Source: an uncultured Holophagaceae bacterium
GTDB taxonomy: Bacteria; Acidobacteriota; Holophagae; Holophagales; Holophagaceae
Length of the DNA stretch: 44,750 nucleotides
NCBI GenBank assembly: GCA_903913215.1
Contig: CAIWKE010000009.1
Coordinates: 1-44,750, forward strand
Direction of reading: 5' to 3'
The position numbers were made by a program, and so were the translations under genes. This document shows positions 219 to 44,290 of the stretch, one piece after another. The notes beneath the pieces are model-generated. The model had not been told where the DNA came from and made no database searches. It saw only the letters and a program-made list of their open reading frames with translations. The stretch's first letter is position 1. Each line of letters starts with the position of its first letter.

Positions 219-1289
219 TCAGAGGTTCCAAATAGCCGAAGGGTCCCAAAAATGGGTCCCATGTGCCCAGCCCTCTTGGATCTTTATTTGACGGAAATGA
301 CCACGCAATGCCTCGTGGTTGAAGAACCCCCGGGGCAGGGGGCGGCCGCCCCCCTCAATCTCGAAGGAGACCTCCAGGGGCTCAGGGCAGTTGGGGGCGT
401 AGGCCACCTGAACGCGGCATTCGCGGGCCCCGGACTGCACGGCTTGAACAGCCGCCTCCCGGGCTGCGTAGGACCCGATGCGGTCGATGTGGGTGAAGTG
501 CTTGCCGCTGAGGGCGCCGCCACCCTGGCCGATGCGGGGTCCGTAGAAGTCCATGGCGAGCTTACGGCCGGTCTGGCCGTTGTCCCCCTCGGGACCCGCG
601 TCCAGCAGGGGCCCGTTGGGATTCAGGCTGAGGGCCACTTCCTCCCAGGAGGCTGACCAGCGGGGATCCGCCCGGCGGGTGGCCTCGTAGGCCCGGCGCA
701 GGACGGCTTCCAGGCGGTGGATAAAGACCAGGTAGTCCAGACCTGGATCCTGCTGCAGGGTCACCAGAACCTGCTCCAGGCGCCAACTCTTCCCTTCTTC
801 GGCTAGCAGCACCAGCAGCTTCCCATCGGGACCCTGGCCCACCAGATCGCCACCCTGGATGGCCATCCAGAGGGCCTCCCGCAGGCTGTGGGCCAGGAAG
901 TGCTCGGGGGTGTGGAAGCGGGTGAGGCGGTCGTAGCCCGCCCAGCCCACGCAGATCGCCTGGTCGTTCACCTTGCGGCTCCACTGGAGGGGATCCTCCG
1001 GGTAGCGGCAGGCGTGGTCCATTACCTGGAAGCTGCGGAGGTCGCCCGCCGGGTTGCGGTAGCCGACCTGCGCCGCCACCTCCTGCACAATGGCTTGCAC
1101 CGGGATGTCTTCGCCGGCGCGCAGGGCGAAGCCACCGGAGACCCAGACTTGGTCGCACCAGGCGCCCACCTCCACCTGGCAATAGGCCTCGGGATCGAAG
1201 GCCTCGCAGCGGGCCACGATGGCCTCGGCCACCTGGTCGCAGAACTTGTCGGGGTGGCCCGGCAGGACCATTTCACTGAAGCGCATCAT
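219..1289 (-). CDS. metK: Divergent S-adenosylmethionine synthetase
   Basis: Predicted to make S-adenosylmethionine from methionine and ATP in the cytoplasm. The N-terminus has the ATP/methionine motif GHPDK (about residues 11-15). The middle and C-terminal parts carry GPEGDNGQTGRKL and GGGALSGK..T.IDR.GSYAAR, matching the family signatures GGPxGDxGLTGRK and GGAFSGKD. At 356 residues it is shorter than the usual roughly 384, and the central motif is diverged, so it is probably not the housekeeping copy. The start overlaps the stop of the preceding VWA gene (TGATG), which implies translational coupling. It is the last gene of a MoxR-VWA operon led by a SAM-riboswitch-like RNA, which fits a SAM-making product. 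The product could also make a SAM analogue or supply a dedicated methyltransferase. Confidence 0.85.
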   Translation of the reverse strand: MMRFSEMVLPGHPDKFCDQVAEAIVARCEAFDPEAYCQVEVGAWCDQVWVSGGFALRAGEDIPVQAIVQEVAAQVGYRNPAGDLRSFQVMDHACRYPEDPLQWSRKVNDQAICVGWAGYDRLTRFHTPEHFLAHSLREALWMAIQGGDLVGQGPDGKLLVLLAEEGKSWRLEQVLVTLQQDPGLDYLVFIHRLEAVLRRAYEATRRADPRWSASWEEVALSLNPNGPLLDAGPEGDNGQTGRKLAMDFYGPRIGQGGGALSGKHFTHIDRIGSYAAREAAVQAVQSGARECRVQVAYAPNCPEPLEVSFEIEGGGRPLPRGFFNHEALRGHFRQIKIQEGWAHGTHFWDPSAIWNL

Positions 1290-2602
1290 CAGGGCACCTT
1301 TGGTAGCTGGGTATAGGAGAGTCCGGCGCGGGTGAGTTCGGCCCCCGAACCGTCGCGGGTGAGCAGGACGTGGATGCGGGTGGCACTGGCGGCCTTCACG
1401 AGCACCTTGGGGACTGCCTCGATGTAGCCGTCGGTGACGATGATGGCGGCTTCGGGCCGGGTAAGGGCCAGGTGCTCCAGGACGCAGGCAAGGCTGGTGC
1501 CCCCGGTGGTGTCGGCCTTCAGGACCGCCTTCGTGATGCGGGCCGGGGCCACCACCGTACTAAAGGCCCAGAAGGGCATGCGGATGTGGCTTCGTAAGCG
1601 GTTCAGGAGGCCGATCACCAGGGGCATCTCGGCGTTCATGGAGCCGCTCACGTCCAGGTAGACCTGGGCCGTACCCCGGGGCCGCTCCGTCGTGAGCTCC
1701 CACCGGGAACTGGGCAGGACAGGGCTCCACAGAGACTGGAGAAAAGCCCGTCGGTCCCCGGGGCTGAGCACGGGCAGCAGGCTCTCCCGGGGCTGGGGTT
1801 GCCGCGCCCGGGAGCGCTGATCCGCGAGGAGGTGCTCCCGGAGCACCTTCAGGGCGGTCCTCTGCCACTGACGCAGAGCCTCGGGCACACCAGCCATGAG
1901 GGCCTCGTAGGCCGGGAGCAGGGCCTCGTGGTTCCGGGGGCTGCGCCAGAGGCCCCCCCCGTTCATCGTCCGCATGGACTGGCCCAAGGCCTCCTTCAGG
2001 GCCTCGGGCAAGGGCAGGTGGGGGTCCTCCTCGTGGTTGCCCAGGAGTTGGCCCGGGACTAGGGTCAATGGTTTGTGTCGCTGTCCCATGGTCTCGGCAA
2101 GTTCGCGGATGTCGTCCACCATGAGCCGCCCCGCATAGAGCGCCTCCCAGGTGGCCCCGAAGAACCCGGGCATGACGTGTTCATGGATCCTTTCACCGGG
2201 TGCCGGCGGTCTGAGGAGGCGCAGGAGGCCCTCCGCGTTTGCGTAGTAGCGGCTCATCATGGCGCTGGCCTCGGGGCCCACCTGGCGGTGGATGAGGGCG
2301 TTGATGACGGCGTCCATGGCTAGGTGTTCGGCGGGGCTCAGGGGCCCGGAGCCCTCCGTGTGGCGCAGCAGGATGTGCAGGAACTCGTGGAGGATGACCG
2401 CCTTCACCTCGGCATCCCTCCGGCAGTGGGCCTTCAGGAAGCCCAGGTTCACCATCAGGCGGGGGGCGGCCTCCCGGGTCACGGCCAAGGTGGGCACGGA
2501 ATCCGTAAACTCCACCCGTGCCACCTTAAGGAATGGGCGGATGGCAAAGGGGTTCTCATCCAGTAGTTCGCGGATGAGGTCATGGAAGCGGTCAGGCTTC
2601 AT
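1289..2602 (-). CDS. Metallopeptidase-like / VWA domain protein (DUF2201 type), MoxR partner
   Basis: A 437-residue protein of the type encoded beside MoxR ATPases. The N-terminal half resembles the putative metallopeptidase domain of this family, with HEFLH at residues 72-76 as the zinc-binding core. The C-terminal part is a VWA-like domain with the metal-ion-dependent adhesion site DVSGS (317-321), a later TGGTS and a TDG. The ATPase is thought to remodel or load a target held by the VWA partner; the substrate here is unknown. It overlaps the upstream unknown gene by ATGA and the downstream metK by TGATG, so the four genes 4466-219 are one transcription unit. A paralogue is encoded at 38770-40293. 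Confidence 0.85.
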   Translation of the reverse strand: MKPDRFHDLIRELLDENPFAIRPFLKVARVEFTDSVPTLAVTREAAPRLMVNLGFLKAHCRRDAEVKAVILHEFLHILLRHTEGSGPLSPAEHLAMDAVINALIHRQVGPEASAMMSRYYANAEGLLRLLRPPAPGERIHEHVMPGFFGATWEALYAGRLMVDDIRELAETMGQRHKPLTLVPGQLLGNHEEDPHLPLPEALKEALGQSMRTMNGGGLWRSPRNHEALLPAYEALMAGVPEALRQWQRTALKVLREHLLADQRSRARQPQPRESLLPVLSPGDRRAFLQSLWSPVLPSSRWELTTERPRGTAQVYLDVSGSMNAEMPLVIGLLNRLRSHIRMPFWAFSTVVAPARITKAVLKADTTGGTSLACVLEHLALTRPEAAIIVTDGYIEAVPKVLVKAASATRIHVLLTRDGSGAELTRAGLSYTQLPKVP

Positions 2603-3051
2603 GCGTAAAACTCCGAGACGCCGAAGAGCTCCAGGCGACGGGTGAGGCTGGCCTGGGTCCAGAGGACCGGTCGCCCGGGGTCAAAACCCACGCTGGTGCA
2701 GAGGCCCAGCAGGAACACCTGGCGTAAGACCTCTTGTGGATCAGCTGTGGCCACCTGGAGGGGGGTCAGGGCGGGGTTCACCAGGCAGACCATGGGCCCG
2801 GGCACTGGCGCGAAGGTGAGACGCAGCAGCTCCGGGTTGGGTATGCGCAGGGCCTTCAGAAGGCGCTGGGCGGTGAGGACGGGATCTTTACGCCCGAAGT
2901 CGAGGGCCAGACAGAGGTGACGTGGGCAGAGGATGGGTCCATCGGCTCGGCCCAGTAGGCTCTGCTCCACCCGCTGGGTGCGAGTCCGGCTACGGGGCCC
3001 CCCGGAATTGACATAGCGCAGGTCATCCGCGTGCGGGGAGGGGCAGAGCAT
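2599..3051 (-). CDS. Unknown protein between MoxR and VWA genes
   Basis: A 150-residue protein with no family I recognise. It starts two bases after the MoxR ATPase stop and ends overlapping the VWA start by ATGA, so it is clearly expressed as part of this unit. The N-terminus is polar and arginine-rich; the rest is leucine-rich and soluble-looking, with no signal peptide or convincing membrane segment. The second MoxR/VWA pair (37566-40293) has no equivalent gene. It may be an adaptor or substrate of the ATPase, but that is inference from position only. Confidence 0.7.
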   Translation of the reverse strand: MLCPSPHADDLRYVNSGGPRSRTRTQRVEQSLLGRADGPILCPRHLCLALDFGRKDPVLTAQRLLKALRIPNPELLRLTFAPVPGPMVCLVNPALTPLQVATADPQEVLRQVFLLGLCTSVGFDPGRPVLWTQASLTRRLELFGVSEFYA

Positions 3052-3053
3052 GG

Positions 3054-4466
3054 CTAGGCCCGGTCCCGGCCCAAGGCCTTCTGGATCACGCCCACGCAGT
3101 CCGCGAGGGCTTGCTCCAGGGCGGCGGGGTCGTCGGGCAGGAGCTTCTTCACGAGGAAGTGGGAGAACAACTGGCGGGCCCGGGACCGGCGCGGCTCCGC
3201 CAAGCCGTCGAGCACCCGGTTGAAGCGCACGATCTCTGGATGCGAGCTACCTCCGTGGTCCAGGCGCTCCTGCCAGGAGATGTCACCGCTCACGCTGAGG
3301 ATGGGCATGGCCACTTTCCCAAGGTCGTGGATGCCGCCTGCGCCGAGGGTGCCGAGGCCCTGACTGGCCGCCGGGTAGAGGGCCAGGCAGAGGGCGGCCA
3401 CCCGGGGGTAGGGCTCGGTGCCGATGAACTCGGCGATGGCCTGGGTGGCGGCGTCGGGGCCTGGGGAGCAGAGGAGTAGGCCAACCTTCCGGGGCAGGGA
3501 GCGCTCGCAGTGGAAGAGGTGGACCCACTTCCGGTCGCCCTGGAGGAAGGCCGAGTCCCAGGCCAGGAGGTGGGCGGCCTCAATGAGCTTCGGTTCGATT
3601 TGCTCGCCCCAAGTCAGGTGGGGCAGGCTGGCCGCCAGCACCCGCTGGGCCAAGTCCTCCTGCATTCCTTCAACCACGATGGCCCCTGCCAGGAGGCTTC
3701 GACTGAGGAAGCGGGCTCGGCGGGGCGAGACTCGGACTCCGTGGCTGTTGAGGAAGGTGGTGGCGGCCACTACGTAGTCCTGGACGGCCCTGGGGCAGTG
3801 TGTCGCCTGCTGTTGGAAGCGCTCCCGCCAGGTGGCAAGGGCCTGCCGCAGCGCGCCGCCGTCCTCGGCCAAGGCGCCCTCCCCAGCGGGGTGGGCGATC
3901 AGGGCACGGTCCTCGTCTTCCAGGTCCCCCCAGTCCGCGGCCTCGATGAAAAGCCCGAAGCGGTCGCCCAGGGCCAGGTCCAGGGGTTCGGATCCGCTAT
4001 AACCCAGGCCCTCCTGATCTGTAGAACAGGGGTTCATGGCAGCCCAGCGGAAGCGCAGGCGGTCCAGGGCGATGCCCTGGATGCGGCGCTCGTGGATCAG
4101 AGAGAAGAGGCGGTTCTGGTGCTCGGGTTTGCAGCGGCTGATCTCGTCCACCAGCACGGACTCGGCGCCCCACACCGTGGCCGGAGTCTGGAGGAAGGTC
4201 ACGCCGCCCTTCTCTGGATCCGGGAAGGGGAAGCCCACCAGGTCATCGAAGGAGATCAGGCTGGCATTGTAGTGCCGGTGCTCCAGACCCAGGGCCTCGC
4301 TCAGGGAGTTCAGGAGAAAGGTCTTTCCGGTGCCGGAAGCCCCGATGAGCAGGAGGGGATCCTCGGTCACCAGGGCGGCCAGGACCAGCGGCGCCACGCG
4401 GTCAAAGCTGAAAGCGCCGATGGCGCGGAGGTAGGACGCGGCGGTGCTTGGCTGGGCGGTTGCCAT
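3054..4466 (-). CDS. MoxR-family AAA+ ATPase
   Basis: A cytoplasmic AAA+ ATPase that probably acts as a chaperone for the VWA protein encoded downstream. Walker A is GASGTGKT at residues 42-49; Walker B is VLVDEIS at about 104-110, followed by the MoxR-typical arrangement R.....EHQNRLFSLIHERR. At 470 residues it is longer than most MoxR proteins (about 330), the extra being C-terminal. The ATG at 4466 is preceded by AAGGAG at good spacing and fixes the start just after the structured leader RNA at 4494-4565. It is the first gene of the operon MoxR, unknown, VWA, metK. Confidence 0.88.
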   Translation of the reverse strand: MATAQPSTAASYLRAIGAFSFDRVAPLVLAALVTEDPLLLIGASGTGKTFLLNSLSEALGLEHRHYNASLISFDDLVGFPFPDPEKGGVTFLQTPATVWGAESVLVDEISRCKPEHQNRLFSLIHERRIQGIALDRLRFRWAAMNPCSTDQEGLGYSGSEPLDLALGDRFGLFIEAADWGDLEDEDRALIAHPAGEGALAEDGGALRQALATWRERFQQQATHCPRAVQDYVVAATTFLNSHGVRVSPRRARFLSRSLLAGAIVVEGMQEDLAQRVLAASLPHLTWGEQIEPKLIEAAHLLAWDSAFLQGDRKWVHLFHCERSLPRKVGLLLCSPGPDAATQAIAEFIGTEPYPRVAALCLALYPAASQGLGTLGAGGIHDLGKVAMPILSVSGDISWQERLDHGGSSHPEIVRFNRVLDGLAEPRRSRARQLFSHFLVKKLLPDDPAALEQALADCVGVIQKALGRDRA

Positions 4467-4493
4467 GGGGCTCCTTTTTCAGGTTGTTCCTGC

Positions 4494-4565
4494 GTATGGG
4501 ATCGGAATCCATGGCACCGTGGCGTCTTGCTCGGTTGCCGGCCCCGGATGGGGCACTCTTCATAC
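4494..4565 (-). ncRNA. Structured leader RNA, SAM-I/SAM-IV-like riboswitch candidate (copy 1)
   Basis: Read on the minus strand this leader starts with GTATG and closes with CATAC (P1), then runs AAGAG, a hairpin GCCCC-ATCC-GGGGC, the conserved stretch CGGCAACCGAGCAAG, GCCACGGTGCC, and a hairpin GGAT-TCCG-ATCC. The pairing partners GCAACC...GGTGC are the hallmark of the SAM-I/SAM-IV core. A second copy at 12772-12847 keeps the unpaired core letter for letter while P1, the first hairpin and the last hairpin change with compensation. That is direct evidence for a selected RNA fold. It leads an operon ending in metK, which supports SAM as ligand. Control is probably at translation of the MoxR gene, since the Shine-Dalgarno follows closely; this is inferred. 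Confidence 0.72.
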
Positions 4566-4572
4566 AAAGTCC

Positions 4573-10241: not shown

Positions 10242-10859
10242 CTAAGGCCTTTCCTCTAGTTGGCACTGAAGTGTCTCGACGGCCTCTCGCAGTGGGCGAG
10301 ACCATGGCTCTGAATGATCAAGCCCAAGCAGATCGAGGCATGAGGTGTAGTACCAAAGCTGGTCCTTGGGGCCTGCCTTGAAGCGATTCCAGAGATTTGG
10401 ACCTTCCGTCTGCAAATCCGTAAGGATGGACTGGAGGTTGTGTAGCTTGTCACTGGCTGCCACCAAGCGAACCGATCTTACTGATGAGGCCAGGCCTTCA
10501 AGGTGGTGTAGCTTGCGCTCATGCCAGGGTGCTTTCTGCTCCGGATTGACTGTGAGGCTGTCGCTGCAAGCTCGGACAATGGTCTCGACCTCCGGGCCGA
10601 AAGCCTTACGAACATCACCGAGGACAGTCTCTCCACCGCCGTCCTCCGCCGTATCGTGGAGGAGGGCTGCGATGGCTTCGTCTTCAGTGGCACCAAAGGT
10701 TAGGGCTAGGGCGCAGACAGCCAAAGGATGGGTGATGTAGGGAATGGTGGTTCCCTTGCGAAGCTGACCATTGTGAACCCGCCGAGCGAACTCGAATGCT
10801 TCCGAGAGGCGTGGCCCGGGCATGGCCCCTGAGGTCGATGTTGTGGGCCGTTCAGTCAT
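10242..10859 (-). CDS. HD-domain protein, (p)ppGpp-hydrolase-like (SpoT/MESH1 type)
   Basis: A 205-residue single-domain HD phosphohydrolase like the small alarmone hydrolases. It shows the ARRVHNGQLRK..IPYITHPLAV start, the metal motif LLHDTAEDGG and a later ASDKLHNLQSI, all typical of the SpoT hydrolase domain; there is no synthetase or regulatory domain. MESH1 relatives hydrolyse (p)ppGpp or NADPH, so a role in alarmone or NAD-type nucleotide turnover is likely. The ATG at 10859 overlaps the stop of the preceding gene, implying coupling. It is the last gene of the operon led by the second copy of the SAM-like leader RNA. Confidence 0.85.
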   Translation of the reverse strand: MTERPTTSTSGAMPGPRLSEAFEFARRVHNGQLRKGTTIPYITHPLAVCALALTFGATEDEAIAALLHDTAEDGGGETVLGDVRKAFGPEVETIVRACSDSLTVNPEQKAPWHERKLHHLEGLASSVRSVRLVAASDKLHNLQSILTDLQTEGPNLWNRFKAGPKDQLWYYTSCLDLLGLDHSEPWSRPLREAVETLQCQLEERP

Positions 10860-11298
10860 GCGGGGCTCTTTGCCGCGGGAGGGCCTGGACGGCCACCAAC
10901 TCCGCCTCGAGCCCCGGCTCGGCCGCGGTCTCCAGGACTTCACCGGGATCCGGCCCTTGCCCGGGCCACATCCGGAAGGGGCCCGCGTTGAGGTCGTTGC
11001 AGTCGTCCGCCCAGCGCCCGAGGATGTGCTGGCCATTCCACTGGCCGATGTAGGTCATGCGGGCCGGCACCATTCGCACGCGGGTGGTGTAGACCTTGCC
11101 CAGCTCCACCTGCCCGGCCGGGGTGAAGGTGCCCGTGTATTGGAAGGTCCCGTCCCTGTCCGACCCGAGGCCTAGGACCTGGCCCTCCTGGAAGGCGAGG
11201 TCCAGCAGCTCCGTGCCCTGGTCGGGTCCCTGCTTCCAGAGGGCCGTCCAGGGGCCGCTCAGCAGGTCCAGGGAGCCGGTGTTCCATGGTTCAGTCAT
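10852..11298 (-). CDS. Unknown small beta-rich protein
   Basis: A 148-residue protein. The core (GTFQYTGTFTPAGQVELGKVY..., YIGQWNGQHILGRW) alternates like an antiparallel beta barrel, recalling lipocalin-like domains of unknown function, but I cannot name the family. ATG at 11298 is preceded by GGAGGG at five bases; a longer upstream frame has no site. Its stop overlaps the start of the HD-domain gene. Confidence 0.65.
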   Translation of the reverse strand: MTEPWNTGSLDLLSGPWTALWKQGPDQGTELLDLAFQEGQVLGLGSDRDGTFQYTGTFTPAGQVELGKVYTTRVRMVPARMTYIGQWNGQHILGRWADDCNDLNAGPFRMWPGQGPDPGEVLETAAEPGLEAELVAVQALPRQRAPHD

Positions 11299-11351
11299 CG
11301 AACCCTCCGCATGGGGTTGGGTGATAATCAGGTCTTGGGCTGGAACCGGGC

Positions 11352-12068
11352 TCAGAGGCCCCAATCCTCGTGGGCCCGGCGCCAAAAGGTCCAGGAGGTC
11401 TCAACGGCCGAGTTGATCAGTGAGTCCAGGGTCTTCTGGTGGACGCCGTGGGGAAGGCAAATCTGGTAGTCGAGGATGAAGTGGGTCGCGTGGGTGGCCT
11501 CGCGGGCTTCGACCTCCTCCTTGGAGGGCGGCGGGTCCTCGTCGGCGTCGGTGTAGCGAAAATCCTGCTCCACCATGGCCCTCGGCCAGCGGTATTCGTT
11601 GTTCCACCAGTTGCAGAGCCGCAGGGCGCGCAGGAACTGGTCGGGGGGAACCCGCTTGTCGCAGCACCAGTTGAGCACCAGGATGTCGGCGTTCTTCCCG
11701 GTGATGTAGATCCGGAAGGTCACGCAGCGGTCGGAGCGCAGCCCGAACTTGTAGTTGATGAGGAAGCCCCGGGTGGGATGGCTGAAGGCGGTGTAGCCCT
11801 CCTGAGCAACCCAGGCACCGATCATGTCCTGTGTCAGGGGAGTTAGGCCTTCGTCGGGCAGTGGCAGGTCGGGCATCTCGTCCGTCATGGCTTGGGTCTC
11901 CGCGGAAGGCTCCCAGGGGGCGTGATAGGCCTCCCAGGCTGCCTGGTTCAGGGTTTTCAGGACCTCGGGGCTGCGGTCGCCGGCCTGGTGGCGGCGAAGT
12001 GCCTCCTCAGCGCTCAGAGGGGCCAGGGAGGGATCTTGGGGCTTCTCGGCCTTCTGCCTGGGGTTCAT
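11352..12068 (-). CDS. YbjN-domain protein
   Basis: YbjN domains resemble type III secretion chaperones and occur in predicted sensory or stress proteins. The 238-residue protein has an N-terminal segment (about residues 28-55, HQAGDRSPEV...LNQAAWEAYHAPWE), then a YbjN-like domain (about 75-235) with VTFRIYITG, ALRLCNWWNNEYRWPRA and LDYQICLPHG. The same N-terminal segment occurs in the protein at 34197-34832, so the two are paralogues. The start overlaps the upstream stop by ATGA. It is the second gene of the operon behind the second leader RNA. Confidence 0.72.
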   Translation of the reverse strand: MNPRQKAEKPQDPSLAPLSAEEALRRHQAGDRSPEVLKTLNQAAWEAYHAPWEPSAETQAMTDEMPDLPLPDEGLTPLTQDMIGAWVAQEGYTAFSHPTRGFLINYKFGLRSDRCVTFRIYITGKNADILVLNWCCDKRVPPDQFLRALRLCNWWNNEYRWPRAMVEQDFRYTDADEDPPPSKEEVEAREATHATHFILDYQICLPHGVHQKTLDSLINSAVETSWTFWRRAHEDWGL

Positions 12069-12739
12069 TCGGTTTCCTCCTCAGGCGGGCGCACCCTCCT
12101 GTCCAGGAAGGCGTCCGACACGCCGCGGTAGTGGCTCGCCAGATCCGGGTAGAAGTCCGAACTTACCCAGATGAAGTCGCGCAGGCGCTCAGCATCGTCG
12201 TATTCGCAGTTCAGTTCTAGAAAGGGCAGGACGAGCCCCGTGTCATCCCACTCGGCACTGTCGATGAGTTGGATCATTTCTCGGCAGTTCAGGGGCAGGT
12301 CGGAGGCCTCAATGGGCAGTCGGAACTCCCGGTCGTACTCATCCACTACACGGTAGTGGAGGCGCCCGTCCTCCTCGATGCTTGCCCGGATGCTGATCAC
12401 ATCTCCAGTGGTCGAGTTCATGGCAACCCGGGCGATCTCGACCTCCTCCGGGAGACAGTCCGGCAGGTATTCACCCCCCATGAAGCTGGGGTGGATCTTC
12501 CCGAGCAGGTCGCGAAGCTCCGGCTCCAGGACGGGCCTAAGCAGGCCTTCGGGGGGGAAGTCGCCGTCACCGGCTTCCAGGGCGCGCTCCAGGAGCTGGC
12601 GTCGGGCCTCGCCCAGGATGTTGCATAGGATGGCGAGGCGGACGGAATCTTCCGGCCAGTAGGACTCCGGGCGGAAGTCGAGGTCAGGACTCGCCGACTT
12701 AGTGTTGGATGGGGAAGAGAGAGGGACCCTTCGGGCCAT
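12065..12739 (-). CDS. Unknown protein, first gene behind the second leader RNA
   Basis: A 224-residue acidic soluble protein that I do not recognise. It has a Ser-rich N-terminus and a helical stretch (VRLAILCNILGEARRQLLERAL), then mixed segments ending DFIWVSSDFYPDL and a charged tail. ATG at 12739 is preceded by GGAGG; the leader RNA at 12772-12847 ends about 30 bases upstream. The stop overlaps the YbjN gene. Its leading position under a SAM-like aptamer suggests it matters to whatever the RNA senses. Confidence 0.7.
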   Translation of the reverse strand: MARRVPLSSPSNTKSASPDLDFRPESYWPEDSVRLAILCNILGEARRQLLERALEAGDGDFPPEGLLRPVLEPELRDLLGKIHPSFMGGEYLPDCLPEEVEIARVAMNSTTGDVISIRASIEEDGRLHYRVVDEYDREFRLPIEASDLPLNCREMIQLIDSAEWDDTGLVLPFLELNCEYDDAERLRDFIWVSSDFYPDLASHYRGVSDAFLDRRVRPPEEETE

Positions 12740-12771
12740 GGTTGCCTCCGGTTTTTCAGGTTGTGTCCCGC

Positions 12772-12847
12772 GCATGGGATCTTGCGATCCAGGCACCGTG
12801 GCAGCTTGCTCGGTTGCCGGGCTCCACCATGGAGCCGCTCTTCATGC
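12772..12847 (-). ncRNA. Structured leader RNA, SAM-I/SAM-IV-like riboswitch candidate (copy 2)
   Basis: This is the second copy of the RNA at 4494-4565. P1 is GCATG/CATGC where copy 1 has GTATG/CATAC. The first hairpin is GGCTCC-ATGGT-GGAGCC instead of GCCCC-ATCC-GGGGC. The last is GGATC-GCAA-GATCC with a GNRA-type loop instead of GGAT-TCCG-ATCC. The unpaired core CGGCAACCGAGCAAG and GCCACGGTGCC are identical. The changes keep pairing while the core is frozen, as expected of an aptamer. Downstream genes are an unknown protein, YbjN, a beta-rich protein and an HD hydrolase, not methionine genes, so the ligand assignment rests on copy 1. Confidence 0.72.
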
Positions 12848-12853
12848 ATCTTC

Positions 12854-16583: not shown

Positions 16584-17321
16584 TCAGGCGCTGTAGCGGT
16601 AGAGGGCAGCAGGCCGGTGGCCCACGTCATCCTGCTGCTCGCCGGTGGGCTCCAGGAGCCCCGTGGCCAGCATGCGCCGACGGAAGGAGTCCTTGTTCAG
16701 CTTCCGGGCTAGCACGGTCTCGTGGACCTTCTGGAGATCGTAGAGGGTGAAGGCCTTGGGAAGGAGCTGGAAGCCCACGGGCGTGTAGTCCAGCTTCCCC
16801 CGCAGCCGCTTGACTGCCAGCCCTAGAATTTCAGCATGGTCGAAGGCCAGGGGCATGGGCTTGCCCTGCTCGTCGAGCACTTCGACCGGACCGCCCTCTT
16901 CCCCATCCCAGGGCACCACCAAGCGAGCCACGACACTTCCAGCCTTACAGGCGCTGAACCGCTCCTGATCCACGAGGGCCATATAGGCCACGCTGAGGAT
17001 GCGCGTCCGGGGGTCCCGCTTGGGAGCGCCGAAGGTGCCGAGCTGTTCCAGGAAGATGCCTTTGAGGCCCGCCTTCTCCCGCAGAACCCTTGCAGCGGCA
17101 GCCTCCAGGTCCTCGTTCATGCGGATGAAGCCACCGGGAAGGGCCCACTTCAGGCGAAAGGGGTGCTCCTGTCGCTGAATCACCAGCGTGTGGAGACTAC
17201 CCTCAGTTGGGGCCAGCAGCACCACATCAACGGCAACGGAAGGGCGCTCGAAAAACGCCGGGTCGTAGCCATCTAGGAAGGCCTGTTCATCGGGGGAGGG
17301 GGGCATGTGGGAGCTGCTCAT
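16584..17321 (-). CDS. nrtR: NrtR-type regulator (Nudix domain plus winged helix)
   Basis: NrtR proteins repress NAD-biosynthesis and related genes and are released by ADP-ribose, which binds a catalytically inactive Nudix domain. The 245-residue protein has an N-terminal Nudix-like domain (about residues 25-160; LKWALPGGFI, degenerate box LREKAGL lacking the EExG glutamates) and a C-terminal winged helix (YDLQKVHETVLARKLNKDSFRRRML). ATG at 17321 is chosen because the domain starts soon after it; the frame runs further upstream without a domain. It is followed by the macrodomain gene and faces the methyltransferase-HNH gene. A regulator sensing ADP-ribose next to ADP-ribose enzymes is a coherent arrangement. 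Confidence 0.85.
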   Translation of the reverse strand: MSSSHMPPSPDEQAFLDGYDPAFFERPSVAVDVVLLAPTEGSLHTLVIQRQEHPFRLKWALPGGFIRMNEDLEAAAARVLREKAGLKGIFLEQLGTFGAPKRDPRTRILSVAYMALVDQERFSACKAGSVVARLVVPWDGEEGGPVEVLDEQGKPMPLAFDHAEILGLAVKRLRGKLDYTPVGFQLLPKAFTLYDLQKVHETVLARKLNKDSFRRRMLATGLLEPTGEQQDDVGHRPAALYRYSA

Positions 17322-17390
17322 GGGGTTAACTACTCCATGCATAATACCCATTTCTTGAAGGCGATCTGGATTTTTGGCCAGAATGGGGCC

Positions 17391-19070
17391 ATGACCAATC
17401 CGTGGGACGTGTACCACCAGGAGGCCAAGACCTTCTTCGAAGTGTACGAATCCAAGCCCTTTGAAGTTCTCCATGCTGACTTGATGGGGTGCCTGCCAGA
17501 GGCTCCTGGCACGGTGCTGGACCTGGGTGCAGGCTCCGGCCGAGACGCGGCTTGGTTCGCCGACATAGGCTTCGATGTTGTGGCGGTGGAACCTGCGGAG
17601 GCCCTTCGATCCCTGGGGCAGGCCGCCCATTCAAGCGCCCGGATTCAATGGATGGGGGACCACCTGCCGGATCTGGGACAGATCTATCGGAGCGGCCTTA
17701 GCTTCGACCTGATCTGGCTGGCTGGTGTCTGGATGCATGTCCCACCTGGGGAGCGGGCACGGGCTTTTCGGAAGCTTGCAGCCCTCCTCAACCCGGGAGG
17801 GCGGCTTGTCTTCTCACTCCGGCAGGGGCCGGTACCGCCGGGCAGGATCTTTCACCCCGTCTCCGCGGATGAGTTGGAGGCCTGGGGCAGTCGACACGGG
17901 CTGTCCGTCCTGCTCCGAACGCATGCCGAGGATGCGTTGGGGCGCGAAGGCGTGTCCTGGACTACCTTGGTGCTCCAGCTTCCTGAGGACGGGACCGGGG
18001 CCCTGACCCTGATCCGGAGCCTGATCCTGCGGGATCGGAAATCCTCTTCCTACAAACTCGCCCTTCTGCGTGTCCTGGGCCGCATTGCGGAAACTCATCC
18101 CGGTACGGCCCGGGAAGAGGATGGAGAGGCTGTGGAGTTGCCCCTGGGACTGGTGGCACTCTACTGGTTGCGGGCCTATCTCCCACTGGCGAGGCTGGGC
18201 CTGCCGCAGCATCCCCAGGCCGCCTCCGGCTTCACGGCCATGATGTCGCGATTGAAGGACTTGGACGCGCCGCAGCTTCGGCCAGGTGTCTCCTTCCATG
18301 GCCAGCTAGCGGTAGACCTTCACCACTCCCTTGTGGAGGCTGCCCAGACCATACGCAGGATGCCCGCGACCTACCTGACGCATCCCGGAACGCAGTCGCC
18401 AATTTTTGGAGTCCGCTCCCGTCGTGCCGGCGCGGTCCTGGTTGATGAAAGCCTCAGGCTGGATCAGGAGGCATTGTGGGCCTTTGGAAGCATGACGGTC
18501 CCCTCGCATCTTTGGAGGGCTTTCCGGCGCTGGGGCCCCTGGATCGAGCCACTCCTCCGCCAGGAGTGGGCGGCATACATGGAGTCCCTCATTGACACCC
18601 GGGATCCCAGGGACCTCTGGCGTGCTCTCACGTGGGTGGATCCCCAGAGGGACACGAGGGAGGTTCGGACCCTGGTGGAGGACCTTCGAGCCCGGGGCCA
18701 GTCCATCTACTGCGTCTGGAGTGGCCGCCATCTCCAGAACGAACTCGATATCGACCACTGCCTGCCACTGGCCGCCTGGCCCTGCCAGGACCTGTGGAAC
18801 ATGCTGCCATTTTCAGCCACGGTGAACCGGGCCAAGGGCGACAAACTGGTCACCCCTGAGCGCCTGGAGGGAGCGAGAGAACGCCTGCTTGAGTGGTGGG
18901 ACAGGGCCTACATCCGGGGACCCAGGGCTTTGGAATCCAGGTTCAGACTGGAAGCCCAACTGAGCCTCGCCATCCCAGAGGAGGGCGGGCTGGGGCTCGA
19001 TCGGGTCTTTCACGGATTGGCCATGAGGCGGATGGCATTGGCTCACGGGAAGCTCTTGAGCGCTTGGTAG
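17391..19070 (+). CDS. Methyltransferase-HNH endonuclease fusion protein
   Basis: A 559-residue two-domain protein. The N-terminal domain is a class I SAM-dependent methyltransferase with motif I VLDLGAGSGRD (about residues 42-52), VVAVEPAE and LIWLAGVWMHVPP. A middle section (about 210-430) is helical and unrecognised. The C-terminal domain (about 440-510) looks like an HNH nuclease: YCVWSG, DIDHCLPLA, LWNMLP and NRAKGDK, with the usual CxxC reduced to one Cys. ATG at 17391 follows AT-rich DNA shared with the NrtR promoter. Methyltransferase and nuclease in one chain suggests a restriction-like or DNA/RNA-repair function. The methyltransferase most resembles small-molecule or protein enzymes, so its target is open. 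Confidence 0.78.
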   Translation: MTNPWDVYHQEAKTFFEVYESKPFEVLHADLMGCLPEAPGTVLDLGAGSGRDAAWFADIGFDVVAVEPAEALRSLGQAAHSSARIQWMGDHLPDLGQIYRSGLSFDLIWLAGVWMHVPPGERARAFRKLAALLNPGGRLVFSLRQGPVPPGRIFHPVSADELEAWGSRHGLSVLLRTHAEDALGREGVSWTTLVLQLPEDGTGALTLIRSLILRDRKSSSYKLALLRVLGRIAETHPGTAREEDGEAVELPLGLVALYWLRAYLPLARLGLPQHPQAASGFTAMMSRLKDLDAPQLRPGVSFHGQLAVDLHHSLVEAAQTIRRMPATYLTHPGTQSPIFGVRSRRAGAVLVDESLRLDQEALWAFGSMTVPSHLWRAFRRWGPWIEPLLRQEWAAYMESLIDTRDPRDLWRALTWVDPQRDTREVRTLVEDLRARGQSIYCVWSGRHLQNELDIDHCLPLAAWPCQDLWNMLPFSATVNRAKGDKLVTPERLEGARERLLEWWDRAYIRGPRALESRFRLEAQLSLAIPEEGGLGLDRVFHGLAMRRMALAHGKLLSAW

Positions 19071-37565: not shown

Positions 37566-38777
37566 TCAGGCGGCCCCCTCCTGCTGCATGGCCTCAAGGA
37601 AGCGCTGGAAGGAGGGGGTCTCGCTGAGGGTCTGGACTGCACTGAAGAACCGCAGGTTCGGGAGAGAGCCACCGCCCTTGCGAAGCTTTTCCGCACTGCG
37701 CCAAGCTCGTCGCAGGGAGAAGATCGCGACCTCCTCGAAGCCCGCCTTGGCGAGCCGGGCCAGTACCACGCCCACTGCATGCCCGAGGGGATCACGCTCA
37801 CCAAGGCGGGCCTTGGAGGGCGTGAGGAGGTGGTCGCTGAGGGCGGTCCCCAGAATCCAGGCCCGGTCTAGCTGGCCCTCGGTGGGCACCTTCACGGCCT
37901 TGGGATCCTCTAGGAGCCGGGCGACTTCGGGCACGACGTCGGCGTGCTTCTGGAAGGTGCGGAAGAGCTGGGCGGCCTCCACCCCGACAGTGCTCTGCAT
38001 GATGTGGCTGTGGAGCGCCTCGGGGGTCCTGGGAAGGGCTAACCCGGCACCTGCCCAGGTGCGGGGCGTTGGTTGCTGCGGGCTGGGACTGGCTGGGTCG
38101 AAGCGGCTGAGGTAACCGGGGTGGCGGGCCAGAAAGGCCCGGACGATAGGAGAAAAGTCCGCCTGCCGGAAGGCCCAGTCCAGCCAGGCTTCGTGGTCCA
38201 CCAACAACTCGAAGTGAGCACAGCGGTTGCTGAAAGCCGTGTCCAGGCTCCGGACGCCGGCACGGTCCTCCAGGCGATTTCCCGCCATGCAGACCACGGA
38301 GCCCTTGGGCAGACAGAAGCCCCCAGAGGTGGTTCGGCCCGTGATGAGCTGAAACAGCGCGTTGCGTACTGAGGGCTCGCAGCGGTTTGGCTCGTCGATG
38401 AAGAGGATGAAGGGCCTTGTGGGATCAAGGGCCGCCGGTGTCGCCCAGCGGGTCACCTTGAACTTCTGCTCGGAGCCGTCTGGGAGTCTGCGAATCAGCT
38501 CCTCCACGGTGGGCACACCCAGGAGGTCCTCAACATTGAGCTCCGGGGCGCTCAGGGTCACCACTGGGAGAGCCTGGAGGGCTTCGCTGCATTGCTCGGA
38601 GGCCCAGGCCACCAGGCGGGGTTCATCACCCAAGGCTTGGAAGAGGGAGGTTTTCCCGATTCCGGGGCTGCCATAGAGCATCAGAGCGAGGCCGCTGTGG
38701 GCCAGGGCCACGGCCAAGTCAGGGAGATCCCCAGGGCGGACCTGGGGGAGGTAGGTGGGCTGGATCTTCTCAACCAT
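37566..38777 (-). CDS. MoxR-family AAA+ ATPase (second pair)
   Basis: A 403-residue ATPase with Walker A GSPGIGKTSLF near residue 36, Walker B FILFIDEPNRCEPSVRNALFQLI near 125 and sensor-1 region VVCMAGNR, then a helical C-terminal part. ATG at 38777 overlaps the VWA stop by eight bases. With the VWA protein at 38770-40293 it forms a second MoxR/VWA pair in the window, in the opposite gene order to the first (VWA gene first). The two ATPases are clearly diverged, so this is not a recent duplication. Confidence 0.88.
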   Translation of the reverse strand: MVEKIQPTYLPQVRPGDLPDLAVALAHSGLALMLYGSPGIGKTSLFQALGDEPRLVAWASEQCSEALQALPVVTLSAPELNVEDLLGVPTVEELIRRLPDGSEQKFKVTRWATPAALDPTRPFILFIDEPNRCEPSVRNALFQLITGRTTSGGFCLPKGSVVCMAGNRLEDRAGVRSLDTAFSNRCAHFELLVDHEAWLDWAFRQADFSPIVRAFLARHPGYLSRFDPASPSPQQPTPRTWAGAGLALPRTPEALHSHIMQSTVGVEAAQLFRTFQKHADVVPEVARLLEDPKAVKVPTEGQLDRAWILGTALSDHLLTPSKARLGERDPLGHAVGVVLARLAKAGFEEVAIFSLRRAWRSAEKLRKGGGSLPNLRFFSAVQTLSETPSFQRFLEAMQQEGAA

Positions 38778-40293
38778 TGTGGGCTCCGAGTTCGAGGTGG
38801 ATGGCGTCATAGCCGAAGTTGGGCCCTGGAAGCTGGTCACTGCACACCACCAGCAGATCGAGGGGCCAGTCGTCGGCGGCGGGCCACGGAACATAGCCAT
38901 CCGTGAGGAGTACGCCGAAATTGAGGGCCGGCAGATCCAGGACCTCGAGGGAGTCGAGGCGCTCAATGACGCAGCGGGGGTCGGTGCCTCCGCCGCCTCT
39001 GAACTCAAGGCTGCGCTCCTGAATGGCAGAGAGTATGTCCTCTGGGTGTTCCAGATAGAGGTCTTCCTGGACGCTGGCATCCCAGGTGATCAGGCGCACG
39101 GGCAACTCGGCATTCTGCAGGATGCCCACTAGCTCACCCATGAAGGCGCCGAGTTGGTCTGGGCCGACGCTACCGGAGACATCGACGAAAACTCCCACAG
39201 GACCACGGTCCTTTATGGGGCCGGGCAGCACAGCCCCCACAGCGTGGGAGCGACGACCGGGCCGCGAGAAGGTCCGGCGTCTTCCTCGGAGGTGGCCATG
39301 AATCCTCTGAGCCAACATCGCCTGCCAGGGGATCTGGGGTGTGAGCAATGGGCCCAGGAGCTTCTGGGCCCAGCCTGGCAGGTGGCCGATACCTTTCGCC
39401 CCCTGGAGGGCCTGTTCAGCAGCCTCCATGAGCTTCTCGCGCCAGGACTCGCGCAGGGCCTCTCGCTCGGCCGCCGTGAGGGCGGTCCAGGCATCGAACC
39501 AGAGGTCCCCATAGCCGCCGCCGGGGCCGGCCACGAGAGGGAACAGCTCGCGCAGACGGTCGAACCGCTCGGGGCGGCCCTGGGCCAGGCTCGGTGGCAG
39601 GTCGCCGCGGATTCTGGCAGGAATTCCCTCGGCTGCCTTCCGGACCGAGCCCCACTCGTCGGCGCTCAGGGCTTCCTGGTTGAACTCATTCAGGATCGCC
39701 TTGCCAAATGCGGCCTTCTCCTCGCGGGACATGCCCTCGATGGCGTCCCGAATGCAGTCGGCGTCAGCGAGGCCCAGTTCACCCAGATCCTGGGGAAGCC
39801 CCTCGTAGATCTCCTCGGCCGGGAGGCCCTTGAACCGGGCATCCAGGAGTGGCTTGAAGGCCTCTGGAAGGCCCAGGAAGTCCCGGCCCAGGTCGCTCTC
39901 ATCGATGAGTAGGTTGATGGCGAAATCATGGGCGATGTTCCAGCGCAGAGGACGTCGGGCCCCGCAGCGCGGGAAGGCATCCAGGGCCAAGTGCAGGGCC
40001 TCGTGAAGGAGGACTGAACGCAGGGCCGGAAGCTCCAGGGCCTCCAGAAACGACCTGCCGAAATAGCAGATGCCCCGGCCGTCCACGCAGGCGGTCTCGA
40101 CCCTGGGATCCTCCGTGATGAGCAGGGGCACCTTCAGGACGAGGCTCCCCAGGAAGGGGCTCGCCTCCACCAGGGTGGCCCGGGCCCGGAAGAGCCTGGC
40201 CTTGAGGACGGTCAGGTCTGCGGGGCTGCTGCTAGGGGGCTCTTGGGTGGCAGTGGGTTCCAGGGGGGGCATCGTCTCTCCAGAGGGAACCAT
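38770..40293 (-). CDS. Metallopeptidase-like / VWA domain protein (second pair)
   Basis: A 507-residue paralogue of the protein at 1289-2602. The peptidase-like core is LLHEALHLALD (about residues 94-104); the VWA-like domain near the C-terminus has VFVDVSGSVGPDQ (DxSxS metal site), RGGGGTDP and LLTDGYV. A downstream ATG at 40272 has a good GGAGAG and would suit the predicted -10 element better; the ATG at 40293 has AGAGG. It is the first gene of the unit with the second MoxR ATPase and possibly SurE. Confidence 0.85.
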   Translation of the reverse strand: MVPSGETMPPLEPTATQEPPSSSPADLTVLKARLFRARATLVEASPFLGSLVLKVPLLITEDPRVETACVDGRGICYFGRSFLEALELPALRSVLLHEALHLALDAFPRCGARRPLRWNIAHDFAINLLIDESDLGRDFLGLPEAFKPLLDARFKGLPAEEIYEGLPQDLGELGLADADCIRDAIEGMSREEKAAFGKAILNEFNQEALSADEWGSVRKAAEGIPARIRGDLPPSLAQGRPERFDRLRELFPLVAGPGGGYGDLWFDAWTALTAAEREALRESWREKLMEAAEQALQGAKGIGHLPGWAQKLLGPLLTPQIPWQAMLAQRIHGHLRGRRRTFSRPGRRSHAVGAVLPGPIKDRGPVGVFVDVSGSVGPDQLGAFMGELVGILQNAELPVRLITWDASVQEDLYLEHPEDILSAIQERSLEFRGGGGTDPRCVIERLDSLEVLDLPALNFGVLLTDGYVPWPAADDWPLDLLVVCSDQLPGPNFGYDAIHLELGAHNG

Positions 40294-40320
40294 GGGGCCT
40301 CTGGATCGACACTGATTGTC
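40289..40320 (-). promoter_or_regulatory. GACA-N5-TGTC box before the second VWA/MoxR unit
   Basis: Exact GACA CTGAT TGTC (40308-40320). On the minus strand CATGGT (40289-40294) sits at the 13-bp distance, a weak -10, compatible only with the ATG at 40272. Confidence 0.5.
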
Positions 40321-40357
40321 ATGCTTCCCATACCCAGGACTGGGCGGCTATGCGCCC

Positions 40358-41125
40358 CTATAGGGGTGCTGGGTCAGTCGGGCCCTCTTTAGGTTCCAAC
40401 TCGGGGTCCTCGCCAAATAGGTAGTCAAGATCGCTCTTTCCACGGCCCATCCGCTGGAGTAGGGCTCGGGCATTCAGGCCCGCCGGATCCGAGACTTCCG
40501 CCGCGGACTCGAGGAACCCGATCGATGTCCTGGATCCCATCTTGAAGCCGGCTCTAGCCCACTGCCGAACGACCTCATCAGGGTGGAATAGCAGCCTCCC
40601 GAGGATCAGTCGATGCCAGAAACTCGCCCGACAGAGGCTGCTGACCGCCGCAGCACAGACCCGGCTCATGGGATCCTGTAGCAGGGGTTTGAGCGCGGGC
40701 AAGGCCGCCGCACCGAAATGGCCCAGGTTCCCCGCCGCCCACTCCCGAACGATTGGTTCCTTGTCCGAGGAGAGAAGGGACAGTAGCGGGATCCCGCCTT
40801 CCTTCCGCTTACCCAGGGACCCGGCAACAAAGGTTCTCGCCCTTGGGTCCGGATGATGGGAGAAGTGGGCTAGAGCTAGGAGGACATTGTCATTCGTATT
40901 CCCAGGGTCCTGATGAATGGACCCAAGGCCCTGAATCGCCCGATCGCGGATGTCCCGGTCAGGGTCGTTGAGCCACGTTTCATAGGTATCCCACACAGAA
41001 GCCATGGTGAAATTCGTGCCGACCCGATTGAAGCGGAAGGGGGCAGATGTCGCCACTGGGCCCCCTTCTCTGTTAGGCATTCCGGGAGGTTCGGGGGCAC
41101 CGGATGGGGTTGATTCATCCTTCAT
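40358..41125 (-). CDS. HEAT-repeat-like protein
   Basis: A 255-residue protein. About residues 40-220 form helical repeats of the HEAT/PBS type (DPDRDIRDRAIQGLGSI, HPDPRARTFVAGSLG, DKEPIVREWAAGNLGHFG, DPMSRVCAAAVSSL, HPDEVVRQWARAG). The ends are acidic and disordered-looking. Such repeats make protein-binding scaffolds. The start at 41125 has GAGG ten bases upstream; a second ATG at 41005 begins just before the repeats. It lies upstream of the second VWA/MoxR unit on the same strand but is separated by the box promoter. The 236-base gap upstream (41126-41361) shows no gene. Confidence 0.75.
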   Translation of the reverse strand: MKDESTPSGAPEPPGMPNREGGPVATSAPFRFNRVGTNFTMASVWDTYETWLNDPDRDIRDRAIQGLGSIHQDPGNTNDNVLLALAHFSHHPDPRARTFVAGSLGKRKEGGIPLLSLLSSDKEPIVREWAAGNLGHFGAAALPALKPLLQDPMSRVCAAAVSSLCRASFWHRLILGRLLFHPDEVVRQWARAGFKMGSRTSIGFLESAAEVSDPAGLNARALLQRMGRGKSDLDYLFGEDPELEPKEGPTDPAPL

Positions 41126-41361
41126 GTTTTGGGATCCTCGCTGAACCGAGTGGGTATTCCCCGATTATAACTGGGCAGTTTGCCAGGCGGGCTGTAGATA
41201 GAACTTCAGCCTGCCAGCGATGAGGTAACTCTGTAGATCAACGGCATGACGTGAAACCGGTCGAAGGTCAGGTGGGCCTTGACATGGCAGTCCAAAGGGT
41301 TCCTTCCAGTGGCGAAACGATTGGATCGGCCCTCACCCTAAGGTGGGCTTGGCGCCGGGGT

Positions 41362-42066
41362 TCATGGGCGCTTCCCCTCAGTTGGGGGCTTCACGCGGTT
41401 CCAGGAAATGGCGCGCCTTTGCCAATGGGTGCCGATGGCCTGGGCGAAATCGGGGCGGACCAGTTTCGCCCGGCCTTCGCACCATTCGGCAGAGTTCTGG
41501 CGCACCACCACCCCTTCCAGGGGCTGCTTGTCGCGAAAACGGCTGGGCATCTCCATCAAGGATTGCTTGAGGGCATCCAGCGTAGTGCTCCCTTGGAGCA
41601 CCTGGGGCACCGAGAACAACTTGGCCGCCCGCGCCAGCGCAATTCGACGGGGCGTGCTCCAGAAGCAACCCTTCTTGCCGTCGTACACATCGAACAGCAG
41701 GAACCAATCGGGCAGCGCCTGATAGTCAAGAGAATGGCGCGCAGCGCACCACTCACCAAACAGGATCAGGCCGGGCGCGAGCACAGAATGGAGCGCCTCG
41801 TCATGCTGGTCGAGCCACGTCGGCAGGCGCGAGAACTGTCCCTGGTGCGGCTCGATGAGATACTGCCCCCGGTTCTGCGCGCGCAGACTACCGTTGGGTG
41901 TCAGCGACAAGCCCAGGTTTGCGCCGTCCAGCTTTTCTTCCACTATGACTTCGCCAGCGAGCAGGGCCTCGGCCTCGGCGGGTGAAAGCACCTTGTCGTC
42001 GCGCGGCGCTACCTTGCCCAGCCAGGCCAGGTGCGGAGTGTGGGGGAAGCGGAAGAAGTCAGTCAT
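41362..42066 (-). CDS. RNA ligase (Rnl2/nucleotidyltransferase family)
   Basis: Joins RNA ends through a lysyl-AMP intermediate. The 234-residue protein has motif I EEKLDGANLG (lysine near residue 43), motif III-like WFLLFDVYDG, motif IV EGVVVR and motif V KLVRP. The segment LFGEWCAARHSLDY is typical of small bacterial RNA ligases related to T4 Rnl2. No C-terminal ligase domain is present. It starts 12 bases after the PIN gene and is the third gene of an ATPase, PIN, ligase operon. An RNA cutter with an RNA sealer suggests damage and repair of a defined RNA, perhaps tRNA. Base composition is less GC-rich than the island average. Confidence 0.85.
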   Translation of the reverse strand: MTDFFRFPHTPHLAWLGKVAPRDDKVLSPAEAEALLAGEVIVEEKLDGANLGLSLTPNGSLRAQNRGQYLIEPHQGQFSRLPTWLDQHDEALHSVLAPGLILFGEWCAARHSLDYQALPDWFLLFDVYDGKKGCFWSTPRRIALARAAKLFSVPQVLQGSTTLDALKQSLMEMPSRFRDKQPLEGVVVRQNSAEWCEGRAKLVRPDFAQAIGTHWQRRAISWNRVKPPTEGKRP

Positions 42067-43889: not shown

Positions 43890-43912
43890 CAGGGCACCTC
43901 TCCAAGGCGTAC

Positions 43913-44290
43913 TTATGAATGGATAGTGTATGTGAAATTTGGTATTTGCTGCTGAAACCGCGCCCACCATTCCCAGTCCCGATCCTGCAGGCACCTCACA
44001 TGCTCAGTGAGATCAATCCAATCCCAGGCCATAGGTGTCGCCAGGACCCGGGCGCTGCGGGTCAGCAGGTGCGATGACCACACAGGCGAGGTGGTTAGGT
44101 GCGAAGGCGTCGATGGAGGCCGGGTCCAGCAGGTCGAGGCTTGTGGTTCCACTCAGGGGATGCCGGCCAGATTGGCGCGGGCCTTGTCCTGGCTCCGGCC
44201 GGCACGATCATGGTTGCGCCAACCGCCCTCAGGACCCTGTTGGTTACAGCCGCCCATCTGCCACGAGGGGGGGCCAGGGTCTTTCCTCCT
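43913..44290 (-). pseudogene. Decayed reading frames upstream of the ATPase operon
   Basis: Protein-like stretches lie in different minus-strand frames. SGRHPLSGTTSLDLLDP...GDTYGLGLD runs to a TGA at about 44015, and MAWDWIDLTEHVRCLQDRD continues in the next frame to a stop at 43913. No single start serves both. This suggests one gene broken by frameshifts. The rest of 44290-44610 shows no convincing gene. Confidence 0.3.

Follow-up and report, generated by a model that had tools for sequence, protein, structure and literature searches.

A recurrent MoxR–VWA gene unit that carries a diverged S-adenosylmethionine synthetase paralogue and is often preceded by SAM riboswitches

The four-gene unit and its RNA leader

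The stretch of DNA analysed here, termed the window, is 44,750 nucleotides long and represents an entire contig (C9; GenBank CAIWKE010000009.1) of the 3.9-Mb genome of an uncultured Holophagaceae bacterium. Its minus strand carries a head-to-tail unit composed of an S-adenosylmethionine (SAM) riboswitch aptamer of the SAM-I/IV class (4464–4570; Rfam RF01725), a MoxR-type AAA+ ATPase (3054–4466; 470 aa), a protein which we call X (2599–3051; 150 aa; type I, see below), a VWA protein with an HExxH motif (1289–2602; 437 aa) and a diverged paralogue of the SAM synthetase MetK, designated MetK* (219–1289; 356 aa). The genes are tightly packed. MoxR and X are spaced by 2 nt, X and VWA overlap by 4 nt, and the VWA stop codon overlaps the MetK* ATG in the sequence TGATG (1291–1287); from the end of the MetK* gene to the contig edge there are 218 nt. 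An earlier note, made from the letters of the sequence, had described this arrangement, including the TGATG coupling, and the open reading frames together with the Pfam matches confirm it. X is indeed uncharacterised, with no matching family in Pfam, NCBIfam or PADLOC.

In the leader, RF01725 is matched at 54.8 bits against a cut-off of 41.1. The aptamer covers the Shine-Dalgarno sequence of MoxR as far as the start codon. Because of this reach we infer that SAM would shut off translation of MoxR, and the riboswitch class suggests that the unit would be induced when SAM is low.

No metK other than MetK* is present on contig C9. A housekeeping-type metK, whose absence from the rest of the genome would by the earlier note have refuted its proposal, is found on another contig (G000:C28).

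Recurrence of the unit

Among 100 genomes representing the organism itself, its genus, family, class and phylum, MetK*-like genes adjoining a VWA gene were seen in four (G000, which is the genome of the window, G048, G051 and G079). Within the genus (47 genomes, G000–G046) the MetK* kind, as judged by identity, occurs only in the genome of the window. A scan covering one genome per species (84,980 species), carried out with MetK* peptide patterns containing HPDK, returned at least 79 loci, of which 39 have the cassette VWA beside MetK* and 40 are canonical metK genes without MoxR or VWA. With L037 and L033 counted once, as they are the same contig, 38 scan loci, the window and three relatives make up a lower bound of 42 distinct loci (at least 42), which span 11 phyla by record title. 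The pair of VWA and MetK* is thus not peculiar to this genome; had it been, the proposal would have been refuted by the terms of the earlier note.

Gene order is well preserved. MoxR is the first gene in 34 loci and is followed by a gap of the size of X, then by VWA and MetK*; the VWA gene lies behind MoxR on the same strand in all 34. In 33 of the 34, X was recognised in this gap, either from similarity or from its N-terminal motif (weakly in L035); the exception is L053. The VWA and MetK* genes overlap by 4 nt in 23/42 loci and by 1 nt in a further two. Eight loci are without MoxR, six of them truncated by a contig edge.

The association can also be recovered from the other side. A profile search with VWA alone gave matches in 14 of 396 Acidobacteriota genomes (E up to 1e-20), and MetK* stands behind the VWA gene in 12 of the 14. 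Of these 12, two (G000, G079) were already in the profile, two (G184, G211) are copies of L066 and L064, and eight are new; in G428 the contig ends behind VWA, at the place of MetK*. The eight new genes and four reached via the Pfam domain constitute a further set of 12 MetK*.

A home of the cassette on phages or plasmids was considered and rejected. Among the matches listed in searches with MetK* (30 of 125 phage and 30 of 166 plasmid records), identity did not exceed about 34% and the genes were canonical-like MetK. None of the best 80 of 415 viral loci carries the cassette MoxR or VWA, so that there is no sign of the cassette in those collections. Many streptococcal phages (records H6–H30) carry a canonical-like MetK that is distinct from that of the cassette.

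Co-divergence and spread

The pairwise identities of MoxR, VWA and MetK* correlate with r of 0.91–0.96 across 30 cassettes, a level reached in 0 of 1000 permutations. MetK* falls into two types, type I, to which that of the window belongs (16/40 rows), and type II (24/40). On the tree, the 11 phyla require 16 changes; shuffling gives 17.5 on average, and 16 of 200 shuffles come out as low. The phylum labels may be blurred by the binning of metagenome-assembled genomes (MAGs). The mixing of phyla fits horizontal transfer of the whole unit. When neighbouring genes were clustered, none beyond the four was constant beside the cassette, the best being an HD hydrolase found in five loci.

Individual cassettes differ in their surroundings. 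The closely related, Comamonadaceae-labelled cassettes L043 and L110 have different neighbours, MzaCDE in the former and a NERD-helicase-like gene plus AbiE in the latter. In L239 a split VWA stands ahead of a dCTP deaminase gene.

SAM riboswitches upstream of the cassettes

Leaders were evaluated in 42 cassettes with sequence upstream of the first gene. This testable set differs from the 42 VWA–MetK* loci and consists of 30 scan loci, the window, L033, L210–L212, L231, L232, L234–L236, L238 and L239; of 31 loci with 250 nt upstream, L074 was dropped since its MoxR is cut by the contig edge. A SAM riboswitch at the Rfam gathering level lies upstream in 23 of the 42, namely in the window, L033, L038–L044, L046, L049, L051, L052, L055, L057, L058, L064, L075, L113, L210, L212, L232 and L235. 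This supports, well beyond this genome, the earlier proposal of a leader RNA through which the unit would respond to SAM.

Twelve more cassettes show a SAM aptamer signal below the cut-off. These are L047, L053, L054, L059, L060, L061 and L077 (E 0.004 to 0.44), L231, L234 and L239 (E 1e-5, 1e-4 and 0.053), and L211 and L238, picked up with a model derived from the SAM-I/IV set (E 0.007 and 2e-7). The same model re-finds L054, L059, L061 and L239 (E 2e-4, 0.01, 3e-5 and 4e-4).

SAM riboswitches as a rule mark genes of methionine and SAM metabolism. Those of the cassettes belong to three Rfam families, SAM-I/IV (RF01725), the S-box SAM-I (RF00162) and SAM-II (RF00521), and leaders of two unrelated kinds, the SAM-I clan and SAM-II, replace each other at least four times among 19 rows of the MetK* tree. 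Between aptamer and first gene lie 9 nt to 1.4 kb. Other genes lie in between in L046 and L113, and in L060 the aptamer leads a canonical metK that precedes MoxR. Tandem aptamers at the gathering level occur in L049, L052, L055, L075 and L210; in L212 and L235 the second copy is weaker. In part of the cassette-locus scans, all 21 gathering-level SAM hits (21/21) were on the cassette strand and within 1.5 kb upstream, a zone that makes up 4.7% of the sequence searched; two SAM aptamers lie outside the upstream zones, at 12741–12852 of the window and at 1383–1491 of L033. In an alignment of 20 aptamers, both of these included, 10 of the 14 consensus pairs show compensatory changes. By Rfam scan, no riboswitch accompanies a second MoxR/DUF2201 pair of the window (37.6–40.3 kb). 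A riboswitch of another class, AdoCbl, is found about 1.5 kb behind MetK* of the Elusimicrobium-labelled cassette L071 (L071:9596–9723).

The altered pocket of MetK*

MetK* matches the C-terminal (E 1.6e-20) and N-terminal (E 4.1e-13) S-AdoMet_synt domains of Pfam. As the earlier note had surmised, it is diverged: TIGR01034 is matched with E 6.4e-39 at 134 bits, far under the equivalog cut-off of 309.4. It was compared with 103 canonical MetK using E. coli numbering placed by motif. The canonical sequences were chosen by HPDK, GAGDQG and GG..F.GKD, and conservation within these motifs follows from that choice, which does not involve Glu55, Gln98, Ile102 or Ile302.

His14, Asp16, Glu42, Asp118, Asp163 and Lys165 are retained in 42/42 MetK*, Asp238 and Lys245 in 41/41 (one gap), and Lys265 and Asp271 in 40/40 (two gaps); for His14 and Asp16 this is partly by construction in the scan loci because HPDK was part of the search pattern. 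The adenine side is partly kept, with Phe230 in 26/42 and with Arg229 and Ser99 not among the commonest residues. On the other hand, Ile302, which presumably contributes to the active site, is replaced by Pro in 40/40. Glu55 is kept in 0/42 (Arg in 21, Gly in 11) and Gln98 in 1/42, the column of Ile102 is empty in 42/42, and the flexible-loop residues of MetK are absent. The window protein has Gly, Tyr, a gap and His at the positions of Glu55, Gln98, Ile102 and Lys269. The 12 further MetK* repeat the pattern, with Glu55, Gln98 and Ile102 in 0/12. Roles of Glu55, Gln98, Lys269, Ile102, Asp163 and Asp238 were assigned according to portions of PMC3853416 and PMC1282579.

Judged from these alignments, the acceptor (methionine) side of the predicted MetK* pocket is rebuilt while the catalytic, phosphate and ribose residues are kept. 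With other residues at the methionine contacts of almost every member, MetK* may not form SAM from methionine in the usual way. It stands apart from canonical MetK on an unrooted tree (SH-aLRT 99; quick search, long branches), which does not prove MetK* to be a single clade.

The hosts generally have another enzyme. Judged by PF00438 score, 33 of 37 host genomes have a canonical-type metK on a contig other than that of the cassette (37 for 38 scan loci, as L065 shares its assembly with L063); the four without it, those of L047, L049, L062 and L113, are all MAGs by title. An extra canonical-type metK lies inside 7/42 cassette loci (L033, L034, L048, L060, L061, L067 and L071).

MoxR, the VWA protein and X

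The ATPase matches AAA_5 above the Pfam cut-off (E 1.3e-8). Its residues G45, K48, D107, E108, N145 and R169 are invariant in 32 aligned members and, read from their positions, would represent Walker A, Walker B, the sensor and the arginine finger. Midasin is the nearest hit in the PDB, and the bpMoxR model is matched at 19.6 bits, its cut-off being 27.

The VWA protein consists of an N-terminal HExxH domain (HEFLH) and a C-terminal VWA domain with a MIDAS motif (DVSGS). H72, E73, H76, D317, S319 and S321 are invariant in 34/34 aligned members. DUF2201 is matched below the Pfam cut-off (21.4 of 26.4 bits), and DUF2201_N is absent. A profile search of the PDB gave nothing significant. The best structural match of the predicted model (mean pLDDT 80.4, pTM 0.54) is chain G of the NorQD complex (E 9.6e-5), which we take to be the VWA domain of NorD; other VWA and integrin I domains follow.

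Type I X has an invariant LGLC...DP.R and an N-terminal N.G.P motif in a 13-member alignment, in which C118 is the single invariant cysteine. The AlphaFold model (mean pLDDT 79.7) shows residues 1–35 as disordered and residues 36–150 as an ordered core, for which no PDB match was obtained by sequence or fold. As seen by eye, both X families, type I and type II, begin near an N-x-[GS]-x-P motif.

A satellite operon and other genes of the window

The second SAM-I/IV riboswitch of the window (12741–12852, minus strand; RF01725 at 55.6 bits against 41.1) leads a satellite operon on the same strand. Its gene 1 (12065–12796; 243 aa, although the start may lie further in) has no Pfam match and is 39% identical to a gene that precedes riboswitch and MoxR in L038. 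Gene 2 (11352–12068; 238 aa) is YbjN-like (PF10722, E 1e-7) and resembles, over 39 residues at 49%, a gene behind the canonical metK of L033. Gene 3 (10852–11385) shows 49% over 139 residues to an L034 gene beside canonical metK. Gene 4 (10242–11036) encodes an HD hydrolase of the RelA/SpoT type (TIGR00691, E 5.1e-16, below cut-off); relatives are found beside four other cassettes, in L113 between the riboswitch and MoxR. Members of the operon (10242–12852) have relatives beside the cassettes of L033, L034, L038, L067 and L113.

Between 4774 and 17630 the window contains an NAD/ADP-ribose cluster with Sir2, NUDIX, histone-deacetylase-like, ADP-ribosylglycohydrolase-like and macro domain genes and, by eye, a second NUDIX-like gene; several members have relatives beside other cassettes. 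A methyltransferase (17307–19070) has a weak, sub-cut-off C-terminal match to HNH and shares 43% identity across 569 residues with a gene in the vicinity of the L058 cassette. The region 37566–42066 holds the second MoxR and DUF2201 pair, a HEAT-like gene (by eye) and an RNA ligase (PF09414, E 9.8e-33). An AAA ATPase at 42603–43994 strongly matches the defence candidates HEC-03B, PDC-M55A and NsnB.

Interpretation

The conserved unit, the RNA leaders and the retained ATP side of MetK* are established at the level of sequence comparison. The explanation that we prefer, and to which we give even chances, is that of a self-contained operon for SAM shortage that spreads horizontally; in it, a motor like NorQD would serve an adenosyltransferase whose acceptor pocket has been rebuilt. 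A fall in SAM would free the Shine-Dalgarno sequence and the unit would be made. MoxR would form an ATP-driven ring to which the VWA protein docks, as in NorQ/NorD, and the VWA protein, with X, would present a client. MetK* would use ATP and transfer the adenosyl group to an acceptor held differently from methionine in the canonical enzyme; alternatively, it might be a special MetK subunit that the motor matures. Overall, the operon would serve to sustain SAM-type chemistry while SAM is short.

A bolder version is, in our view, less likely than not: MetK* might be a second kind of biological ATP adenosyltransferase with the MetK fold, loaded by the motor and acting on an acceptor other than free methionine, within a widespread, mobile response to SAM depletion that has repeatedly been brought under SAM riboswitches of different families. 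The acceptor could then be X, the side chain of a protein, or a further small thiol or thioether.

Several observations weigh against a SAM-shortage operon with a rebuilt adenosyltransferase. Regarding the leaders, seven of the 42 testable cassettes show no SAM aptamer (L048, L056, L067, L071, L111, L112 and L236), the sole SAM-type match of L236 being 1.6 kb behind MetK*. The signals of L047, L053 and L077 (E 0.03–0.3) are near chance level, as unrelated RNA families were matched at like E (for example 0.023 and 0.07). The unit is not always complete, as MoxR was not found in L041 and L048 despite room upstream, and no MetK* was found behind the VWA of G341 (L239). The 38 species-scan loci are metagenome-assembled by title. 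Type I (n=13) and type II (n=10) X show no similarity by hhalign. As to the pocket, position 269 is still Lys in 23/42 MetK* (His in 16), and the loop of Gln98 and Ile102 is strongly altered and aligns poorly, so that these columns are less certain than that of Glu55. Finally, archaeal methionine adenosyltransferases without the Glu55, Gln98 and Lys269 contacts still use methionine, which they hold otherwise, according to a portion of PMC3853416; an altered pocket is therefore no proof of an altered substrate.

The foremost alternative, which we regard as unlikely, is that MetK* acts as an adaptor. It would enter mixed dimers with canonical MetK and bring the latter to the motor for reactivation or protection during SAM shortage, in the way of an activase such as CbbQ/CbbO for Rubisco. 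The active sites of MetK lie where the two subunits of the dimer meet. The altered methionine side would suit such a role, as would the canonical-type metK inside seven of the 42 cassette loci; each of the seven genomes has another metK elsewhere. Against this, none was seen nearby in the remaining 35, many of them on short contigs, and MetK* has retained the triphosphate, Mg and ribose ligands, which the function of an adaptor alone would not require.

An anti-phage unit appears rather improbable to us. Phage SAMases exist, as described in a portion of PMC7877911; such an enzyme could open the riboswitch, and the unit could then restore a SAM-like supply for restriction-modification or kill the cell through its HExxH domain. 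The patchy occurrence (4/100 genomes, the own genome alone among 47 of its genus, 14/396 in the phylum) and the mixed phyla on the tree (16 changes against 17.5) would be in line with this, as are MzaCDE 2.8 kb behind the L043 cassette, AbiE 3.6 kb behind that of L110, and a dCTP deaminase (L239:5284–7545; PADLOC dCTPase, E 2.7e-153) directly behind that of L239. However, PADLOC gives no strong match for any protein of the cassette, the matches being weak ones to MoxR (best E 1e-4). Flanking proteins were scanned for 132/209 near cassettes and 121/397 near canonical metK, with 81 and 4 families matched, respectively, a comparison that counts families rather than members, in which the 81 mostly repeat a few genes and matches of the defence type occur in the control flanks as well. 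The sensing of phage SAM hydrolases suggested in the earlier note may be a role of the unit, three cassettes within 4 kb of defence genes being too few to decide.

We consider improbable a dedicated metabolite or modification pathway, in which one particular methyl- or alkyltransferase would receive a SAM analogue made by MetK*. The altered acceptor pocket would agree with it, but there is no constant transferase among the clustered neighbours, where HD hydrolases are what recurs. Delivery of SAM to a dedicated modification, also put forward in the earlier note, is a candidate role at most. A chance neighbourhood of ordinary genes is hardly credible: MoxR/VWA pairs and metK are each common, but gene order, overlaps, co-divergence and riboswitches contradict it.

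If the SAM-shortage operon is real, it would reveal a new client of a MoxR–VWA machine or new chemistry of the MetK fold. SAM riboswitches of three Rfam families standing before a mobile MoxR–VWA machine with its own MetK paralogue raise the questions of what task the motor has at SAM depletion and of what a SAM synthetase with an altered pocket adenosylates.

Comparison with known systems

The combination of MoxR with MetK was unfamiliar to the earlier reader, and no description of it was found in the open-access literature searched, subscription papers and preprints being outside that search. PMC9964418 (MoxR/riboswitch) is, in the portion available, unrelated to the cassette. Likewise, no MoxR/VWA operon under the control of a SAM riboswitch was found in the open-access literature, whereas the cassette leaders themselves are ordinary members of the SAM-I/IV, SAM-I and SAM-II families. 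With MetK, as defined by TIGR01034, MetK* shares the family and the ATP-side residues; it differs in falling under the cut-off, in its replaced methionine contacts and in the loss of the flexible-loop residues.

DUF2201 MoxR/VWA pairs, exemplified by that at 37.6–40.3 kb of the window, also combine a metallopeptidase-like N-terminus with a VWA-like domain, but the VWA protein of this second pair exceeds the cut-offs of DUF2201_N and DUF2201 whereas that of the cassette does not. The MoxR-vWA ternary conflict systems (VMAP, iSTAND, FtsH, beta-propeller), as far as described in a portion of PMC7159879, equally consist of MoxR, VWA and a third gene and are patchily spread. In the cassette, X has no family match and bpMoxR, the one model of these systems to respond at all, remains below cut-off, a distinction to be read with the possibility that models for the other classes are missing from the libraries. 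In a term search, 'riboswitch' and 'metK' did not occur in the main text of PMC7159879, as far as it was available.

NorQ/NorD, CbbQ/CbbO and RavA/ViaA also pair a MoxR protein with a VWA partner having a MIDAS motif. There are no nor or cbb genes among the window genes scanned (Pfam, NCBIfam); for other loci the comparison covered 25 of 127 matched neighbour families. The role of NorQ/NorD is ATP-driven remodelling for cofactor insertion, as given in a portion of PMC9976466. From NorQ/NorD the cassette is set apart by the HExxH domain at the N-terminus of its VWA protein, by its MetK* partner and by its SAM riboswitch.

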